Shown: in pieces, positions 25,468-55,172 of the stretch
Layout of the letters: the number at the start of each line of letters is the position of its first letter
Numbering within the stretch: position 1 is the first letter of the stretch
Notes under the pieces: model-generated
Told to the model about the DNA's origin: nothing
The model's input: the letters and a program-made list of their open reading frames with translations, nothing else
Database searches by the model: none
Assembly (NCBI GenBank): GCA_021228405.1
Contig: JAJQRF010000001.1
Span: 496,001 to 560,000 of the forward strand
Reading direction: 5' to 3'
Length of the DNA stretch: 64,000 nt
From: Pyrinomonadaceae bacterium
GTDB taxonomy: Bacteria; Acidobacteriota; Blastocatellia; Pyrinomonadales; Pyrinomonadaceae
Position numbers and translations under genes: made by a program

Positions 25468-28206
25468 CTAGCCTTTCACGACGATATTGACCAGACGTTT
25501 CGGCACGACCACGACTTTGACGATTTCCTTTCCGTTTGTCCATTCCCGGACTTTTTCATCTTCCAAAGCCATTTTCTGCAATTCGTCGTTCGACGCTTCG
25601 GGCGAAGCGATCAGGCGCGAACGCAGTTTGCCGTTGATCTGCACCGGAATTTCGATCTCGTCGGATTTCGCCAATTCCGCGCTGAATTCGGGAAATCGCG
25701 CACGGTTGGCGAGCATTCCGTTTTCGTTGCCGACCAAAACCGAATACAATTCTTCCGCCGCGTGCGGCGCAAACGGCGCAAGCATCAAGATCAAACTTTC
25801 GACCGCTTCACGAATCGCAAAAACATCCGCGTCGCTTGCCGTTTCGGGTTCGCCCTTGAAATCGTAAAGCGCATTCGACAATTCCATCAGCGCGGCAACC
25901 GGCGTGTTAAATTGCAAAGATTCAAAGTTTTCCGTCACGCGTTTGATCGATTGGTGTGTTTTCTGACGCAATTTCCGACTGTCAGAACCGCCTGTGGTAG
26001 CGGGCGGGTTTTCATTAGCATTTGAGTTTGTCGAGTTCAACCCATCCACTACCGCAGATGGTTCTGACAATTTCGCCTGCCATTTATGAACAAACCGCCA
26101 GACTCTCTGCAAAAATCGCGTCGTGCCTTCGATTCCCGATTCATTCCAGACAAGCTCGTTTTCGGCGGGCGCGGCAAACAGCACGAACAGGCGCGAAGCG
26201 TCCGCGCCGTAGATTTCGACCATTTCATCGGGATCGACACCGTTTCCCTTCGATTTCGACATTCTTTCGATTGCCGATTTCAAAACGATTCCGTCCGCCG
26301 ATTTTGCCGAAATTATCTTTCCTTTCGCGTCGCGTTCGACCGTCACGCTCGAAGGCGGAAAATACTGGCGTTTGCCCGCGCTTTCAGGTTCTTCCGGGTT
26401 CGGAATCATATCGAAAAACGTTTCGCCGACGACCATTCCCTGCGTCAAAAGACGTTTGACGGGTTCGTTAAATTTTACCAGCCCGATGTCGCGCATTACT
26501 TTTGTCCAGAAACGCGTGTAGATCAGGTGCATTACGGCGTGATCGTCGCCGCCGATATATTGGTCAACGGGTGTCCAGTATTCCGCGACCTTCGGATCGA
26601 ACGGCAAATCCCCGTTCTGCGGATCGGTGTAACGAAAATAATACCAGCACGAATCGACAAACGTATCCATCGTGTCGGTTTCGCGTTTGGCGGGTTCACC
26701 GCAGTTCGGACAAACCGTATTTACGAAATTTTCATCCTTCGCAAGCGGCGAAGTCCCCGCGATGTCATCGCTCAAAACCATATTTTGCGGCAACTCGATC
26801 GGCAGATTCTCGTATTTTTCGGGAACGATTCCGCATTTTTCGCAATACACGACCGGAATCGGCGCACCCCAGAATCTTTGTCGCGAAATTCCCCAATCGC
26901 GCAAACGATACGTTGTCGCGCCTTCGCCGAAACCGTGTTTGACGGCATATTCGGTCATCGCTTTTTTCGCATCGTCCGAAGTTTTTCCGTTCCAATTGTC
27001 CGAATGAACCAGAACGCCGTAATCGGTGAACGCCTGTTCCAAAGACATTGTCTGCATCTGATGATGTTCGTGAGCGAGATGCGGTTCGGAAATGACCTGA
27101 CGGATCGGCAAATGATATTTTCTCGCAAATTCAAAATCGCGTTCGTCGTGCGCCGGAACGCTCATCACCGCGCCCGTTCCGTATTCGATCATCACGTAAT
27201 TGCCGACCCAAATCGGTAATTCTTCGCCGGAAAAAGGATTGACCGCCTCTAATCCGGTGTCAACGCCTTCTTTTTCGATCTCGGCATCGTGGTCGGTAAC
27301 TTTCAATTTATCGGCTTTGATATTTTCGATAATAACTTTCGTTTCATCCGAAAAATGCTCATAATTCGCTTCAACAATCGGATGTTCAGCCGCGACGACA
27401 ATCGCGTTCGCACCGTAAATCGTGTCGATTCTTGTCGTAAATACTTTAATTCGGTCGCTCGAATCAGAACTTCGGACTTTGGACTTTGGACTTTGGACTT
27501 CAAAATCCACAAATGCGCCTTCGCTTCTGCCGATCCAGTCGCGCTGACGTTTCAGGACTTTTTCCGCCCAGCCCGTTTCGATTTCCGCCATATCGTCGAG
27601 CAATTGGTCGGCGTAATTGGTCGTTTTCAAAAACCATTGTTCCAAATCGCGCTTCGTGACGGGGTTTCCGCAACGCCAGCACAAACCGCCGCTCGCTTGT
27701 TCGTTCGACAAAACGGCTTTGTCCGTTTCGCACCAGTTGACCTGCGTTTTCTTTTTATACGCCAAGCCCATTTCATACATTTTGATGAAAAACCACTGGT
27801 CGAATTTGTAATAATCGGGACGATGCGCCGCCATCTGACGCGACCAATCATAGCTCAAACCCAAACGCTGAAGCTGTCCCGTCATATGTTGAATGTTGGC
27901 TTCCGTCCAGTCACGCGGATTCGCGCCGCGTTTGATCGCCGCGTCTTCCGCCGGCTGACCGAACGAATCCCAACCGATCGGATGCAAAACATTGAATCCC
28001 TTCAAACGCTTATACCAAGCCAACGCATCACCGATCGAATAATTGCGAACGTGTCCCATATGCAGATTGCCTGACGGATACGGCAACATTTCCAGCGCGT
28101 AAAACTTCGGTTTCGTATCATCAACGTCGGCTTCAAACGCGCCGGTTTCGCGCCATTTCGTCTGCCATTTATCTTCTATCTTTTGTGCAAAATATTTCTC
28201 GTCCAT
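25468..28206 (-). CDS. leuS: Leucyl-tRNA synthetase
   Basis: 912 residues, a class I synthetase that charges tRNA-Leu. Motifs visible are PYPSGNLHMGHVRNYSIGD (HIGH motif, about 42-60), IGWDSFGQPAEDAA, the zinc region CWRCGNPVTKRDLEQWF (about 177), the CP1 editing domain (FTTRIDTIYGANA and GTGAVMSVPAHDERDFEFA), GWDWTR-like DWGISRQRFWGAPIPV, and RMSKSKGNGVDPDEM (KMSKS, about 660). The C-terminal anticodon-binding domain is complete. A heptamer array (27471-27498) encodes an in-frame loop of about 14 residues (QSPKSKVRSSDSSD) at the CP1 entry, where bacterial homologues have a shorter turn. The gene seems intact despite this. Confidence 0.97.
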   Translation of the reverse strand: MDEKYFAQKIEDKWQTKWRETGAFEADVDDTKPKFYALEMLPYPSGNLHMGHVRNYSIGDALAWYKRLKGFNVLHPIGWDSFGQPAEDAAIKRGANPRDWTEANIQHMTGQLQRLGLSYDWSRQMAAHRPDYYKFDQWFFIKMYEMGLAYKKKTQVNWCETDKAVLSNEQASGGLCWRCGNPVTKRDLEQWFLKTTNYADQLLDDMAEIETGWAEKVLKRQRDWIGRSEGAFVDFEVQSPKSKVRSSDSSDRIKVFTTRIDTIYGANAIVVAAEHPIVEANYEHFSDETKVIIENIKADKLKVTDHDAEIEKEGVDTGLEAVNPFSGEELPIWVGNYVMIEYGTGAVMSVPAHDERDFEFARKYHLPIRQVISEPHLAHEHHQMQTMSLEQAFTDYGVLVHSDNWNGKTSDDAKKAMTEYAVKHGFGEGATTYRLRDWGISRQRFWGAPIPVVYCEKCGIVPEKYENLPIELPQNMVLSDDIAGTSPLAKDENFVNTVCPNCGEPAKRETDTMDTFVDSCWYYFRYTDPQNGDLPFDPKVAEYWTPVDQYIGGDDHAVMHLIYTRFWTKVMRDIGLVKFNEPVKRLLTQGMVVGETFFDMIPNPEEPESAGKRQYFPPSSVTVERDAKGKIISAKSADGIVLKSAIERMSKSKGNGVDPDEMVEIYGADASRLFVLFAAPAENELVWNESGIEGTTRFLQRVWRFVHKWQAKLSEPSAVVDGLNSTNSNANENPPATTGGSDSRKLRQKTHQSIKRVTENFESLQFNTPVAALMELSNALYDFKGEPETASDADVFAIREAVESLILMLAPFAPHAAEELYSVLVGNENGMLANRARFPEFSAELAKSDEIEIPVQINGKLRSRLIASPEASNDELQKMALEDEKVREWTNGKEIVKVVVVPKRLVNIVVKG
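27471..27498. repeat. Heptamer array inside leuS
   Basis: Four units, TTCGGAC then TTTGGAC three times, lie in frame within leuS and encode VQSPKSKVRSS on the minus strand. TTTGGAC has no stop codon in any of the six frames. Confidence 0.9.
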
Positions 28207-35975: not shown

Positions 35976-36449
35976 TTAGAGTTCGCTGTATGGTTTTCCT
36001 TCGGAGCTTTCGCCGTCAGCCATACTTTTCACGTCTTTGATGCCTTGCGCGCCGTCGGGAGAATTCGGGTCGTCGCCCTGAACGGATTGCCATTCGGGTT
36101 TTTCGAGAATCGGATCGACCGGAATTTCCCGCAAATATTTTCCTTCCACGAGATTGTCAAGCGATTGCGGAAGTTTGCCTTTGTCGGTCGCATATTGGTC
36201 GATTGCGCGGCGCATTTGCCAGAGATTTTCCTTCAGAACCATTTCGCGCGCGTGCTGAACGGTTCGCTGGTAGGTCGGCAAGGCGACCGAGATAAGAATA
36301 ATGATGATAAACATCGCGATCATCAATTCAAACAGCGAGAAACCTTGTTCGCCCCCGGATTTCGGATTTCGGATTTCGGATATTAGATCATTTCCCGGTT
36401 TTCCTCTTTTCCAATTCTTAAATTTACCAATCACTGTATTTCTCTCCAT
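35976..36449 (-). CDS. GspG/PilE-like pseudopilin
   Basis: 157 residues. The prepilin cleavage site and hydrophobic helix GEQG/FSLFELMIAMFIIIIL (about residues 34-53) are clear, with the conserved Glu at position +5. The C-terminal GspG-like region contains GKLPQSLDNLV, YLREIPVDPILEKPEW and GIKDVKSM. The 35-residue leader is unusually long and is partly encoded by a heptamer array (36357-36383: SEIRNPKSGG). The start overlaps the upstream pseudopilin gene by 26 bases. Confidence 0.9.
   Translation of the reverse strand: MERNTVIGKFKNWKRGKPGNDLISEIRNPKSGGEQGFSLFELMIAMFIIIILISVALPTYQRTVQHAREMVLKENLWQMRRAIDQYATDKGKLPQSLDNLVEGKYLREIPVDPILEKPEWQSVQGDDPNSPDGAQGIKDVKSMADGESSEGKPYSEL
36357..36383. 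repeat. Heptamer array in pseudopilin leader
   Basis: Three perfect GGATTTC units and a partial fourth (GGATAT) encode SEIRNPKSGG on the minus strand, just before the prepilin cleavage site. GGATTTC has no stop in any frame. Confidence 0.85.
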
Positions 36450-45175: not shown

Positions 45176-45496
45176 TTACTTTTCAGGAACCGAGCCGGAA
45201 ATTTTCTTGCGCGTCGTTTCGCCTGTTTCGATCACGGGAATTCCGTCGGAAACTTCTTCGTGCGGACGCGGAATAACGTGGACTGCCGTAACCGTGCCGA
45301 TCCGCCGCGCCGCCGCCGCACCTGCTTCAACCGCCGCTTTGACCGCGCCGACCTCACCGCGCACGATTGCCGTGACCAATCCCGCATCGATCTTTTCGTA
45401 ACCGACCAGCCGCACATTGGCAGATTTGACCATCGCGTCCGCCGCTTCGATCATCGCCACCAATCCCATACATTCAACCATTCCCAATGCTTCCAT
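45176..45496 (-). CDS. BMC-H shell protein (hexamer)
   Basis: 106 residues, one BMC domain. [20 protein letters not shown] at the N-terminus, [20 protein letters not shown] (with the conserved sheet-edge Lys replaced), [20 protein letters not shown] and [11 protein letters not shown] are the signature of PduA/EutM-type hexamers, which tile the facets of microcompartments. The C-terminus has a polar tail of about 20 residues. It is the last gene of the BMC operon. Confidence 0.96.
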
Positions 45497-45529: not shown

Positions 45530-46027
45530 CTAATCCCAACTCGAACTACTGCTCGACGAATCACTGCTCGAACTATTGCTCGATGAATCGTAAGACGAAG
45601 ACGAATCCGAGTAACTGCTCGGCGAATCGTATGAAGATGTCGAAGAATCCGAATAAACGCTTTCCGTGTAAGACGAATATTCCGTCGCGCTTCCCGCGCC
45701 GCCGCTCGCTTCGGAATAATTTGCCGGAGCCTCATTCATCGAATTATCCGTTAAAGAACCGCCGAGCGAAGCTTCTGCGCCCGCTTCGCTCCTGCCTGAA
45801 TTCGTTTCTCCATTCGAGGCAAAATACATCGGCTGGTAATCTTCAAAGTCATTTGAATCATCCGAATCATTCACAGTTCCAACGCCCGCATAATTACCTG
45901 CACCGACAAACGGCTTTCGTCCCGATTGTTTGCCTTTGACGATTTGCCGAATAATGAAAACAGCAAATGCCAACACGCCGAGCGCGATAAACGCACCGAT
46001 AAAAAATATGATGATCGCAATTGTCAT
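45530..46027 (-). CDS. Membrane protein with Ser/Asp/Tyr-rich tail, unknown
   Basis: 165 residues. One N-terminal hydrophobic segment (IIIFFIGAFIALGVLAFAVFI) is followed by a linker and a tail of about 60 residues of mostly Ser, Asp and Tyr ending in SSSSSSWD. The tail is probably disordered. It lies in the BMC operon between the shell gene (33 bases away) and a zinc-ribbon gene. No homologous microcompartment role is known to me. Confidence 0.8.
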   Translation of the reverse strand: MTIAIIIFFIGAFIALGVLAFAVFIIRQIVKGKQSGRKPFVGAGNYAGVGTVNDSDDSNDFEDYQPMYFASNGETNSGRSEAGAEASLGGSLTDNSMNEAPANYSEASGGAGSATEYSSYTESVYSDSSTSSYDSPSSYSDSSSSYDSSSNSSSSDSSSSSSSWD

Positions 46028-46526: not shown

Positions 46527-48281
46527 CTAAACCTTTGCAAAAACTTCCCTTTCCTCGCCCAGATCACGTGCCGAGGGCGTGATTATCGTCTTCGCCGAAA
46601 TAAAAATCTTCTCGCCTTTTTCAATCGCGCTCCGCACGTCCGTTTCGCTCACAAAATCAACAGTTTTCGGTTTATTATTCGCAGACACAGGCGGTTTTAT
46701 CTCGTGAATGATCGTTTTCACGGGCGAATCATTTGCGATTTGCGATTTGCCGTTTGCGATTTCATTCGACGTTTCCGATTTATTTTCTTTCGGCTTTTCG
46801 GTCAACTTTTGACTCAAAAACTTATCGACAATCGCGGCAATTTCAGCACGTTTGGGATTTTGCCTGGTCGTTGGTCGTCGGTCGCTGTTCGTTGCCGAAA
46901 TCGCCGGACTCTGGACTTTGGACTTCGGACTTCGGACTGACTTCGTTTCAAACGCGACCCGTTTAATGTCCATTAAATGAATCGGGGAAACGTTGTCGCT
47001 CGTCACATTTCCGCCCCACGAACCGCAGCCTAATGTCATCGAAGGCGAAAGATCGGTCGAAAAACCGATCGCGCCGTGCGTCGTCGGCGAATTGATGATA
47101 ACGCGTGATGCCGGCATCTGTTCGCCGTATTTTATCGCCGCTTCACGCGACTGCGTGTGCATTCCGGCGGTGTGCCCCATTCCGCCGAACTGCAAAATTT
47201 CCAAACATTTCTGCGCACCCTGCTCGATACCGTCAACTACGAAAAATGCCAGTGTCGGCGAAAGCTTTTCAAACGACCAAGGATAATCGCGCCCGACTCC
47301 GCCGCAATCGGCGATCAAACAACGTGTTCCCGACGGAACGGAAATCCCGGCGAGATTCGCGATATATTCGGCGGATTTGCCGACGATTTTTGCGTTTAAA
47401 GTTCTCTGCGGCGTAATCAAAACCGCGCCGACCTTTTCCGCTTCTTCCTTATTTAAAAAATGTCCGCCTTGTTTCGTAAACTCTTCGCGGACTTGATTTG
47501 CGATCGGCGCGTCAGCAATGACGGCTTGTTCGGAAGCACAGATCGTGCCGTTATCGAAACAGGTTCCCGTCAAAATATCTGCGACCGCTTTTTCGACATT
47601 TGCCGTTCTTTCGACAAAAACCGGAACGTTTCCCGGTCCGACACCGAAAGCGGGTTTGCCCGAAGAATACGCGGCACGAACCAAACCCGTTCCGCCCGTC
47701 GCCAGAATGACGGCGGTTTTCTTATGCTTCATCAGCGTTTCCGTGCCTTCCAGAGCGGAAGTCGTCAGGCACTGGATCGCATCGGGCGGCAAACCTTCGC
47801 GCACGCCGACTTCCTTCATTATGCGCGCCGTTTCCGCGATGGAACGAGCGGCGGACGGATGCGGCGAAAGCACGATCGTGTTACGCGATTTGATGGCGAT
47901 AATAATTTTGAAAATTGCCGTCGAGGTCGGATTCGTCGAAGGAATGATCGCCGCCACAACTCCGCGCGGTGAAGCGATCTCGACGACATTTCCGTTATCG
48001 CGCACGACTCCGACCGTTTTCAGATTTTTGAAATGATTCCAAACGTCTTCCGCCGCGAAACGGTTTTTCTCGCGTTTGTCTTCCGCTTTGCCGAAACCCG
48101 TTTCCTCGTTCGCCATCACGCCGAGCCGAGCAGACTCGGCAAGCGCGGCATTTGCCATCGCTTCGCAGATTCGGTCGATCTTCGCCTGGTCAAATTTCGC
48201 CACCATCGTCCACGCCAAATGCGCGGCTTCCACCGCGTCACGCGCTTCCTGTTGCGAAATTAAATCTTTATCTTGCGACAT
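46527..48281 (-). CDS. BMC-associated CoA-acylating aldehyde dehydrogenase with extended tail
   Basis: 584 residues, longer than the usual PduP/EutE length of about 460. Residues 1-446 are the catalytic core: [59 protein letters not shown], the catalytic Cys248 in NGTICASEQ and [14 protein letters not shown]. It makes acyl-CoA from an aldehyde and CoA with NAD+. The tail has four parts: a repeat-encoded linker (448-478), the amphipathic helix [15 protein letters not shown] (479-493, probable encapsulation peptide), a second repeat-encoded linker (494-540) and a conserved-looking end with [20 protein letters not shown] followed by [13 protein letters not shown] (about 549-581). Its BMC shell genes flank it. 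Confidence 0.95.
46731..46764. repeat. Heptamer array in BMC aldehyde dehydrogenase tail (second linker)
   Basis: Units ATTTGCG, ATTTGCG, ATTTGCC and GTTTGCG encode [13 protein letters not shown] on the minus strand. The heptamer has no stop codon in any frame. Confidence 0.85.
46866..46940. repeat. Two heptamer arrays in BMC aldehyde dehydrogenase tail (first linker)
   Basis: GGTCGTT, GGTCGTC, GGTCGCT and GTTCGTT (46866-46893) encode [30 protein letters not shown] twice and GGACTGA (46906-46940) encode [12 protein letters not shown]. Both are read in frame on the minus strand. Confidence 0.88.
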
Positions 48282-48388: not shown

Positions 48389-48784
48389 CTATTTATTTCT
48401 TGATTTATTTCTGTCGTTTACCGAAATTTCGCTCGAACCGCCGCCCGAACCTAATTGTCCGCGACCGCTTTCCTGCAATGCTTTTTCGTCAGGACTGTAA
48501 CCGACTGCGCCGCCTTTCGGGAGAACTCTTTCGACTTCGCCGTGCGGACGCGGAATGACGTGAACCGAGATCAGTTCGCCGACCCGACGAGCCGCCGCCG
48601 CACCTGCGTCCGTTGCCGCCTTGACCGCGCCGACATCGCCGCGCACAAAGATCGTGACATAGCCCGCGCCGATATATTCTTTGCCGACAAGCTGAACGTT
48701 TGCCGCTTTTACCATCGCGTCAGCCGCTTCGACCGCACCGACAAAACCTTTGGTTTCCACCATTCCGAGTGCTTCTAAACTCAT
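48389..48784 (-). CDS. BMC-H shell protein (hexamer), first gene of the operon
   Basis: 131 residues. A complete BMC domain in residues 1-92 ([60 protein letters not shown]) is followed by a 35-residue polar C-terminal tail with a Gly/Ser stretch. It differs from the second shell protein mainly in this tail. The ribosome binding site GAGAGGA precedes ATG 48784. It forms facet hexamers with a pore for small substrates. Confidence 0.96.
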
Positions 48785-51868: not shown

Positions 51869-51950
51869 ATAACAGATAACTGATAACTGATAACTGATAA
51901 CGATCAGCAAAGAACTATCCACTATCAACTATCCACTATCACTTATCAAC
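51869..51950. repeat. Two adjacent heptamer arrays
   Basis: ATAACAG, ATAACTG three times and ATAACGA (51869-51903), then ACTATCC, ACTATCA, ACTATCC, ACTATCA and CTTATCA (51914-51948). The second array contains the stop codon of the next gene. The two arms are partly complementary. Confidence 0.85.
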
Positions 51951-53264: not shown

Positions 53265-55172
53265 TTAGAGCATTTCGCTGAGGTTTTCCCATTCGTCGTA
53301 GAGCGATTGGATTTTTTGTTCGATCTGCCGGTATTGTTCGTTTTTTTCCTGTAATTTGGCGTGATCGGCGGCAATTTCGGGCAAAGACATCTCGAACGTG
53401 AGTTTTTTCAGTTCCTCTTCAAATTTCGGAATCTCTTTTTCTTCGATCTCCGCGATGCGGGTTTCGATCTTTTGCAGTTGGTTTTTGCTTAAGTCGGTCT
53501 TTGGTCTTTGGTCTTTGGTCTTCGGTTCGTTTTCCGTCACCGTTTCTTTTTCGGCTTCGGGCGATGAAACAACGGAAGAATTACGCATTTTCCATTCGTG
53601 CGTTTCGGAATAGTTTCCGTCATAGATTTCGACTTTGCCGTTCGTTTCAAACGACATTATCTGCGTCGAAACCTTGTCGAGAAAAAAACGGTCGTGGCTG
53701 ACGGTGATGATCGTGCCCTGATATTCGTCGAGCGCGTTTTCCAGAGCCTCGCGCGAAGGAATGTCCAGATGGTTCGTCGGTTCGTCTAAAACAAGCACGT
53801 TTTTGTTCGAGTAGATCAATTTTGAAAGCGCGAGTCTGCCTTTCTCGCCGCCCGAAAGGTCTTTGACCGATTTGAAAACGTCTTCGCCCGTAAATAAAAA
53901 CCGCGCCAGAAACGAACGAAGCTCGCCGTTTTCCGCGCCCGGCGCAACGCGCCGGAGTTCCTGTATCACCTCGTTGCGGTCGTCCAAATCTTCAAGATTC
54001 TGCGAATAATAGCCGATGTCGGTTTTCGGTCCCCAGATAATTTTGCCCGAAATTTCACGAATATTTCCGAGCACGGTTTTCAAAAACGTCGTTTTGCCCG
54101 TCCCGTTTCCGCCGATCACACCTAACGCTTCGCCGCGTGTGAGCGTAAAATTGATGTTTTTCGCGAGAATTTTTTCGCCGTAACCGATCGCCAAATCTTC
54201 CGTCATCAAAACGTTTTGTCCGGCGCGCTCGACCTTTTTAAGATTGAAATTTCCCTGCGGTCGGTCGGCGACGACGGCTTCGACGCGTTCCAGCCGTTGA
54301 AGCATATTGCGTCTTGATTTCGCCTGTTTCGTCTTTTGTCCTTCGAGATTTTTGCGGACAAAAGCCTCGGTGTTTTTGATGAACGCCTGCTGATTTTCAA
54401 ATTCGCGCCGCTGAATCTCGCGCCGTTCTTCGCGTTCGACCAGAAATTGCGAATAATTGCCCTTATACGTCACCGCCTTGCCGTTTTCGATCTCGATGAT
54501 GCGGTTAGTCGTGCGGTCAAGAAAATAACGGTCGTGGCTGATGATGACGTAACTTTTATCGTAAGTTTGAAGAAAATTTTCGAGCCATTCGACCGCTTCA
54601 ACGTCGAGATGGTTGGTCGGTTCGTCCAATAAAAGCACGTCGGGCGAGGAAAGAAGCAAGCGCGCCATTCCCAAACGGTTCTTCTGTCCGCCCGAAAGAC
54701 TTTTCGTTTCGAGCGTCCACATCGTTTTCGGAAATCCCAAACCTAACAGAATCGCTTCGGCTTTCGCGGCGTAGGAAAAACCGTCTTCGGCTTCAAATTC
54801 AAGCTGAAGCTCGCCGTATCGTTCGAGAACTTCCTCGTTTGCATCGGTTTCCATCTGCTTTTCCAGACGCTTCATCTCGGCTTCGATGTCGTGAATTTTC
54901 TTAAATGCGGAAAGCGCGGCGGTGTGAACCGTTTCGTTCTCGGAAAAATCGACGTGCTGTTGAAGCAGTCCGAGTTTGAGGCTGTTGATTTTAATGACAT
55001 CGCCCGAATCCGCCGATTCTTCGCCCGTAATGATGCGGAAAACTGTCGTCTTGCCCGCACCGTTTCTGCCGACCAGCCCGATCTTTTCGTTCGGGTTGAC
55101 CTGAAACGAAACCCCGCGCAAAACTTCGTGCGCACTGTAAGATTTTTTAACGTCTGAAAGTCTGAAAAGCAT
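53265..55172 (-). CDS. ABC-F family ATPase (Uup/YheS-like)
   Basis: 635 residues, two ABC domains in one chain without membrane segments. Walker A GRNGAGKTT (about 35) and GGNGTGKTT (about 350), signatures LSGGQKNRLGMA and LSGGEKGRLALS, Walker B VLLLDEPTNHLD and VLVLDEPTNHLD. A C-terminal coiled coil (about 565-635) is typical of Uup. ABC-F proteins act on the ribosome, at the E site. The linker before the coiled coil contains a heptamer-encoded stretch (EPKTKDQRPKTDLSKN, about 543-560). Confidence 0.95.
   Translation of the reverse strand: MLFRLSDVKKSYSAHEVLRGVSFQVNPNEKIGLVGRNGAGKTTVFRIITGEESADSGDVIKINSLKLGLLQQHVDFSENETVHTAALSAFKKIHDIEAEMKRLEKQMETDANEEVLERYGELQLEFEAEDGFSYAAKAEAILLGLGFPKTMWTLETKSLSGGQKNRLGMARLLLSSPDVLLLDEPTNHLDVEAVEWLENFLQTYDKSYVIISHDRYFLDRTTNRIIEIENGKAVTYKGNYSQFLVEREERREIQRREFENQQAFIKNTEAFVRKNLEGQKTKQAKSRRNMLQRLERVEAVVADRPQGNFNLKKVERAGQNVLMTEDLAIGYGEKILAKNINFTLTRGEALGVIGGNGTGKTTFLKTVLGNIREISGKIIWGPKTDIGYYSQNLEDLDDRNEVIQELRRVAPGAENGELRSFLARFLFTGEDVFKSVKDLSGGEKGRLALSKLIYSNKNVLVLDEPTNHLDIPSREALENALDEYQGTIITVSHDRFFLDKVSTQIMSFETNGKVEIYDGNYSETHEWKMRNSSVVSSPEAEKETVTENEPKTKDQRPKTDLSKNQLQKIETRIAEIEEKEIPKFEEELKKLTFEMSLPEIAADHAKLQEKNEQYRQIEQKIQSLYDEWENLSEML
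53496..53523. repeat. Heptamer array inside the ABC-F gene
   Basis: Three GGTCTTT units and GGTCTTC encode PKTKDQRPKTD on the minus strand, in the linker before the C-terminal coiled coil. Confidence 0.9.

Follow-up and report, generated by a model that had tools for sequence, protein, structure and literature searches.

The analysed window, a 64-kb stretch on a contig of a 5.7-Mb draft genome (G000, contig C4), contains a gene for a CoA-acylating aldehyde dehydrogenase that is flanked by two BMC-H shell protein genes and forms an ACI-type BMC satellite locus (Table 1). The named relatives of the enzyme belong to the Pyrinomonadaceae/Blastocatellia of the Acidobacteriota, which places the organism in the family Pyrinomonadaceae. 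One relative carries two dehydrogenase genes of this type in tandem (L092, G066:C51:24647-27660). Beside a shell gene, positions 45530-46027 (-) encode a small membrane-anchored-looking protein with a Ser/Asp-rich low-complexity tail and a 27-bp repeat (45532-45589). The main locus lies apart from the dehydrogenase on contig C6 (246.8–249.7 kb), where three PF03319 proteins (a BMC-P triplet) and one PF00936 protein (a third BMC-H) are grouped with a class II aldolase. The published ACI description (Sutter 2021, PMC8217296) places the dehydrogenase consistently on a satellite locus and shares with our genome the acidobacterial host, the class II aldolase, the BMC-P triplet and the BMC-H proteins. 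As a satellite dehydrogenase together with this grouping matches the published layout, we assign the compartment to the ACI type. The ACI type also features a hydroxyacid dehydrogenase in its main locus and an encapsulation peptide at the C-terminus of the aldolase. A by-eye look at the protein list revealed no hydroxyacid dehydrogenase near the aldolase, and the aldolase carboxy-terminal helix was not significantly amphipathic by hydrophobic moment.

Table 1 Features of the dehydrogenase locus and of the ABC-F linker array, in window coordinates.
Feature	Position	Strand	Evidence and remarks
CoA-acylating aldehyde dehydrogenase (EutE/AdhE-type), 584 aa	46527..48281	-	TIGR02518 570.6 bits (cut-off 620.1), PF00171; PDB 5j78 E 5e-149
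Catalytic core, aa 1-446	46944..48281	-	1320 bp core without heptamer arrays in all 112 homologues
Linker 1, aa 445-477	46851..46949	-	Variable across all homologues; pLDDT <50 over 403-474, where values before aa 445 belong to a core part with shallow alignment
Conserved helix, aa 478-492, candidate encapsulation peptide	46806..46850	-	Conservation and model
Linker 2, aa 493-541	46659..46805	-	pLDDT <50 over 496-535; SPVKTIIHE motif kept in close relatives
C-terminal module, aa 542-584, EutT/EutQ N-terminus-like	46530..46658	-	Model mean pLDDT 86.8; hhalign
Heptamer array 1, AGTCCRA x 4.7	46906..46938	-	12-aa product; lag-7 score 20
Heptamer array 2, CGACCAA x 3	46865..46884	-	Product DRRPTT; lag-7 score 10, expected 0.3 per 64-kb shuffle
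Heptamer array 3, CGCAAAT x 3.9	46731..46757	-	Product ANGKSQIAN; lag-7 score 14; TRF 46731-46762
Inverted heptamer-array pair (hairpin) between BMC-H and dehydrogenase start codon	48283..48378	-	RNA MFE -49.5 kcal/mol, z -9.6
BMC-H shell protein	48389..48784	-	PF00936 E 3.6e-29
BMC-H shell protein	45176..45496	-	PF00936 E 1.8e-28
Heptamer array in ABC-F ATPase linker (gene 53265-55172)	53496..53526	-	Product EPKTKDQRPKTD; 8/30 orthologues with array here

All 112 homologues share one arrangement, in which the core is followed by linker 1, the helix, linker 2 and the C-terminal module; helix and module are conserved, the two linkers variable. The tail does not stop at the second linker; it runs on through the SPVKTIIHE motif into the folded module. 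In an alignment of 31 proteins, residues V485, D486 and L489 of the helix (IVDxFL) are invariant, as are F, V, E, D, T, P and R positions of the module, and the linkers contain zero invariant columns. Across the 112 homologues the helix V is invariant, with D, F and L nearly so. The AlphaFold model based on the 31 sequences yielded pLDDT values of about 28–37 over most of both linkers, a helix at residues 478-494 at modest confidence and a compact C-terminal module, which folded alone with a mean pLDDT of ~87. Based on this shallow model and a propensity scale, both linkers are predicted to be disordered. Encapsulation peptides are amphipathic helices of 15–20 aa, attached through a flexible linker, that target cargo to the shell or to a cargo condensate. 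The 11-residue helix core showed a hydrophobic moment of 0.58 (p 0.04), whereas the whole 16-mer gave p 0.40; the Eisenberg scale lent no support to amphipathicity of the full helix, and the core alone was supported, with another scale.

Comparing the module with N-termini of known compartment proteins by hhalign gave P values of 2e-6 for E. coli EutT and 2e-5 for EutQ, against 0.62 and 0.12 for two control N-termini. The similarity spans the ITPSAR segment, with NCBIfam values of 0.0012 for EutT, 0.09 for EutQ and 5e-4 for TIGR02536. Pfam contains no family for the module, and Foldseek with its model returned nothing below E 0.3. A PDB hmmsearch with the module profile returned mainly designed helical repeats, which we rejected as summed weak matches. 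In Salmonella EutQ, the only such protein reported to associate with the shell, residues 9–41 make this contact, a flexible region (42–61) is needed, and the helices that follow bind cargo encapsulation peptides (PMC12487888). This shell-cargo adaptor resembles the dehydrogenase tail in that a small module is joined by a flexible region to helices, whereas here the module is C-terminal and sits on the dehydrogenase itself, the likeness being one of profile (P 2e-5). The dehydrogenase tail may, if the analogy holds, unite a cargo-type helix with a shell-binding module, linker 2 taking the place of the EutQ flexible region, so that helix and module would bind cargo and shell. The available portions of the ACI description (PMC8217296) mention neither an internal helix, a second linker and a EutT/EutQ-like module nor repeats.

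Three heptamer types flanking the helix within about 210 bases had been described, and we confirmed all three arrays on the coding strand, including the peptides proposed for them. At lag-7 scores of at least 10, 14 and 20 the window contained 17, 9 and 7 occurrences, respectively, where dinucleotide shuffles led us to expect 0.30, 0.05 and 0.00. Across the 210-bp region the lag-7 match was 48.3%, whereas 1000 shuffles averaged 26.8% and never exceeded 36.9%. The units of arrays 1 and 3 (AGTCCAA and CGCAAAT) are also present in the nearest relative (G023), at the same place and with about the same copy numbers.

We found heptamer arrays in 14 of the 112 homologues, sampled at one genome per species; 14 carry them in linker 1 and 11 in linker 2, amounting to 30 arrays in 14 genomes, and cores contain none. 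The remaining homologues possess Ala/Pro/Ser/Gln-rich linkers of similar length. No homologue combined the same linker with a lack of repeat character: close ones bear repeats, and the linkers of distant ones are different and non-repetitive. On a quick tree of the cores, which omits one array-bearing fragment, the genomes with arrays fall into two groups and two isolated cases, requiring at least five changes. Part of array 1 appears to be ancestral: several genomes share the position at which its 12-aa product begins.

The same pattern was observed in two further genes. In the ABC-F ATPase, arrays are confined to the linker that separates the second ATPase domain from the C-terminal domain, which starts at about aa 577, and in a 109-aa BMC protein an array occurs in 11 of 30 relatives, only in the linker joining its two halves. 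The latter protein, encoded in the ACI main locus (L172:8452-8781, -), matches no Pfam family and has a conserved Cys-rich end, CPYEPTGKPCDHCAMCSSRGF. Unrelated units fill one and the same linker in different species: at the three linkers, 7 of 10, 10 of 11 and 7 of 8 units were distinct. Unit identity was 0.94 within an array versus 0.68 between species for dehydrogenase linker 2, with corresponding values of 0.91 and 0.66 for the 109-aa protein and 0.90 and 0.66 for ABC-F. The linker device is a property of the lineage that extends to other genes, wider in scope than in the preliminary description, and not specific to the compartment enzyme. The leucyl-tRNA synthetase gene carries a heptamer array close to where the editing domain begins (27469-27500), and that of a pilin-like protein has one just ahead of the N-terminal methylation motif (36356-36381).

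Statistics for the genome itself cover the window and a further 400 kb of sampled sequence. These 464 kb contain 46 period-7 arrays and a single dinucleotide shuffle none, indicating that the repeats are a genome-wide property. Arrays at periods of 4–6 and 8–13 numbered 0–1 over the same sequence, with the multiples 14 and 21 following period 7. Intergenic DNA, 16% of the sequence, holds 33 of the 46 arrays. Regardless of the unit, array lengths cluster around 31 bp (median 31 for 87 arrays from the window, L123-L149 and L172), longer ones being rare, and this length is common to coding and intergenic DNA. Genomes with arrays in the dehydrogenase linkers are mostly repeat-rich, with 6–39 arrays per 100 kb (G026, G000, G005, G075), compared with 0–2.5 per 100 kb in genomes without; the exception, G031, has linker arrays, yet 0 arrays in the 19 kb sampled.

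Each strand of a heptamer unit encodes one cyclic heptapeptide, identical in all three frames; since 7 and 3 are coprime, the choice of frame has no effect on the peptide, and the strand alone matters. AGTCCAA, for example, yields SPKSKVQ on one strand and LDFGLWT on the other. Both strands are open in about half of all heptamers. Among the coding arrays, which comprise 33 distinct units that are mostly A-rich on the coding strand, 52 of 54 use the more hydrophilic strand. Restricting the count to arrays open on both strands gave 41 of 42, or 39 of 40 once three arrays close to N-termini (L123, L127, L142:19908) are left out, where longest-ORF calls may have taken in 5' untranslated arms. The main weakness of these counts is that orthologous arrays are not fully independent, so that they overstate the number of events, although distinct oriented units still use the hydrophilic strand in 21 of 22 cases. 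For intergenic arrays between co-directional genes the hydrophilic strand was the sense strand in 11 of 25, so a general effect of transcription on strand does not account for the coding bias. Selection on the mRNA instead of the peptide could also produce such a bias; the intergenic arrays speak against it. The proposal that heptamer DNA supplies polar, flexible linkers is supported by the almost exclusive use of the hydrophilic strand and by the disorder indicated by the modelled pLDDT values.

Heptanucleotide repeats are known from Xanthomonas and Nostoc, with the unit GGGNATC and, in Xanthomonas, inverted pairs of one heptamer (Rehm 2015, PMC4692102), and as TAACTGA repeats from Beggiatoaceae, cyanobacteria and Bacteroidetes (MacGregor 2015, PMC4679880). 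They resemble the present arrays in their period of 7, their typical number of about four units and their mostly intergenic location near start and stop codons, and Xanthomonas shares the inverted pairs. TAACTGA arrays are also present in our genome (window positions 51869-51901); this unit class accounts for 4 of the 46 arrays in the 464 kb. Each of the published systems has one unit sequence and is mainly intergenic, whereas here at least 33 units lie in coding sequence with one strand chosen; the single conserved G-rich unit of Xanthomonas and Nostoc contrasts with our 33 distinct, mostly A-rich ones. For TAACTGA within open reading frames, limits on reading direction were reported, linker formation was not (PMC4679880). 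A further comparison is offered by the Borg tandem repeats (Schoelmerich 2023, PMC9879509), which likewise produce disordered stretches within genes and differ between homologous proteins; all unit lengths of the Borg ORF repeats are, however, divisible by three, whereas a unit of 7 makes the frame irrelevant and leaves only the strand to count.

Outside genes, the arrays tend to pair. In 15 of 23 neighbouring array pairs both members have the same unit in inverted orientation, and in 0 they are direct copies, where 1.5 of each would be expected; the inverted pairs fold into intergenic stems, often of 20–30 bp. The hairpins often begin right after a stop codon and finish right before a start codon; further inverted pairs lie at L127:7851-7963, L129:13539-13620, L131:1530-1603, L134:1939-2018 and L149:7341-7406. 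In the gap between BMC-H and the dehydrogenase, the hairpin exceeds all shuffles at 23 of 84 homologous loci, 19 of which have period-7 arms of differing sequence. This gap hairpin recurs with a different heptamer per lineage (e.g. L024, L026, L044, L065 and L070), the structure being kept and the sequence rewritten. The only Rfam matches, to eukaryotic miRNA hairpins and to a Phe leader, fell below gathering scores and were rejected as generic long-stem matches. At a guess, the hairpin might set the ratio of BMC-H and dehydrogenase products. It is possible, though on balance doubtful, that an active and sequence-indifferent process in Pyrinomonadaceae writes heptamer arrays of ~31 bp with varying units, often as inverted pairs, yielding both RNA hairpins and protein linkers; we found no literature report of inverted pairs with freely varying units.

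The preponderance of intergenic arrays and their hairpins beside start and stop codons would fit a reading in which the tail arrays, too, are kept as DNA or RNA elements such as protein-binding sites or arms of RNA structures, the peptide being a by-product. We consider this unlikely for the tail, as the two detected arrays there are not inverted partners and all three share one orientation. Moreover, peptide hydrophilicity explains a strand bias that intergenic arrays lack, and the units turn over freely.

Two further readings concern copy number. According to the first, which the preliminary description had suggested, array copy number differs between strains, sets the reach of the helix and thereby tunes cargo loading. 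Linker lengths do differ between species (17–65 aa for linker 1 and 27–115 aa for linker 2 among the 112 homologues), and linker 1 is somewhat longer with arrays than without, with medians of 38 and 30 aa (p 0.004, uncorrected for phylogeny). Such wide variation, however, also occurs without repeats, copy numbers at both arrays are roughly unchanged in the nearest relative, and computed changes of one or two units shift the frame, which is restored only when three units are added or lost. In addition, very different units all form arrays of ~31 bp in coding and intergenic DNA, so that length appears to be set by array formation and not by function. Tuning by repeat number is thus very improbable; our literature search found no paper addressing linker length in relation to loading.

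The frameshifts themselves raise the second reading, a phase switch in which one-unit slippage in array 1 would produce a catalytically complete enzyme without helix and module, which would then stay outside the compartment in part of the population. Computed gains or losses of one or two units in array 1 truncate the protein after 30–49 tail residues with loss of helix and module, and those in array 3 keep the helix and lose the module. The arrays are nevertheless short and imperfect, which disfavours slippage, and no frameshifted allele was seen at any array, the single frameshifted tail (G082, L113) being located in a linker without heptamers. With arrays absent from most homologues, a switch cannot serve as a conserved function, and we regard it as highly unlikely.

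Taken together, the tail arrays are probably inert spacer material for a flexible tether, kept on the polar strand and having no tuning role. The tail would act as this tether, running from the core through linker 1, the encapsulation-type helix and linker 2 to the folded C-terminal module. Because the linkers would only need polarity and disorder, their sequence would be free to change. In repeat-rich lineages, arrays of 4–5 units would have entered or formed in the linkers and then been kept; fitting a frame would be easy, as the heptapeptide does not depend on which frame of a strand is read. Selection would retain the strand encoding polar peptides (KVQSPKS, NPKSKIQ) and remove the hydrophobic one (GLWTLDF). 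Elsewhere, too, encapsulation peptides are attached through disordered linkers of low conservation (PMC12339742), which makes an inert spacer the default expectation, and we infer that the spacer has no further role. The idea of ready-made linkers is supported in a general form that is not restricted to compartments.

Linkers tend to be described just as poorly conserved, whereas here their raw material is recognisable by its period. The resulting rule, that a unit length coprime to three frees a repeat from the reading frame and leaves only its strand to be selected, predicts where such repeats can enter genes. For the compartment, the data suggest an ACI dehydrogenase bearing both an encapsulation-type helix and a EutQ/EutT-like, possibly shell-binding module, with a linker of this kind connecting the two, by which compartment assembly becomes testable. 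If the proposed array-writing process is real, intergenic hairpin structure would be kept in Pyrinomonadaceae while each species rewrites its sequence, and within genes a single arm on the polar strand would become a new interdomain linker.
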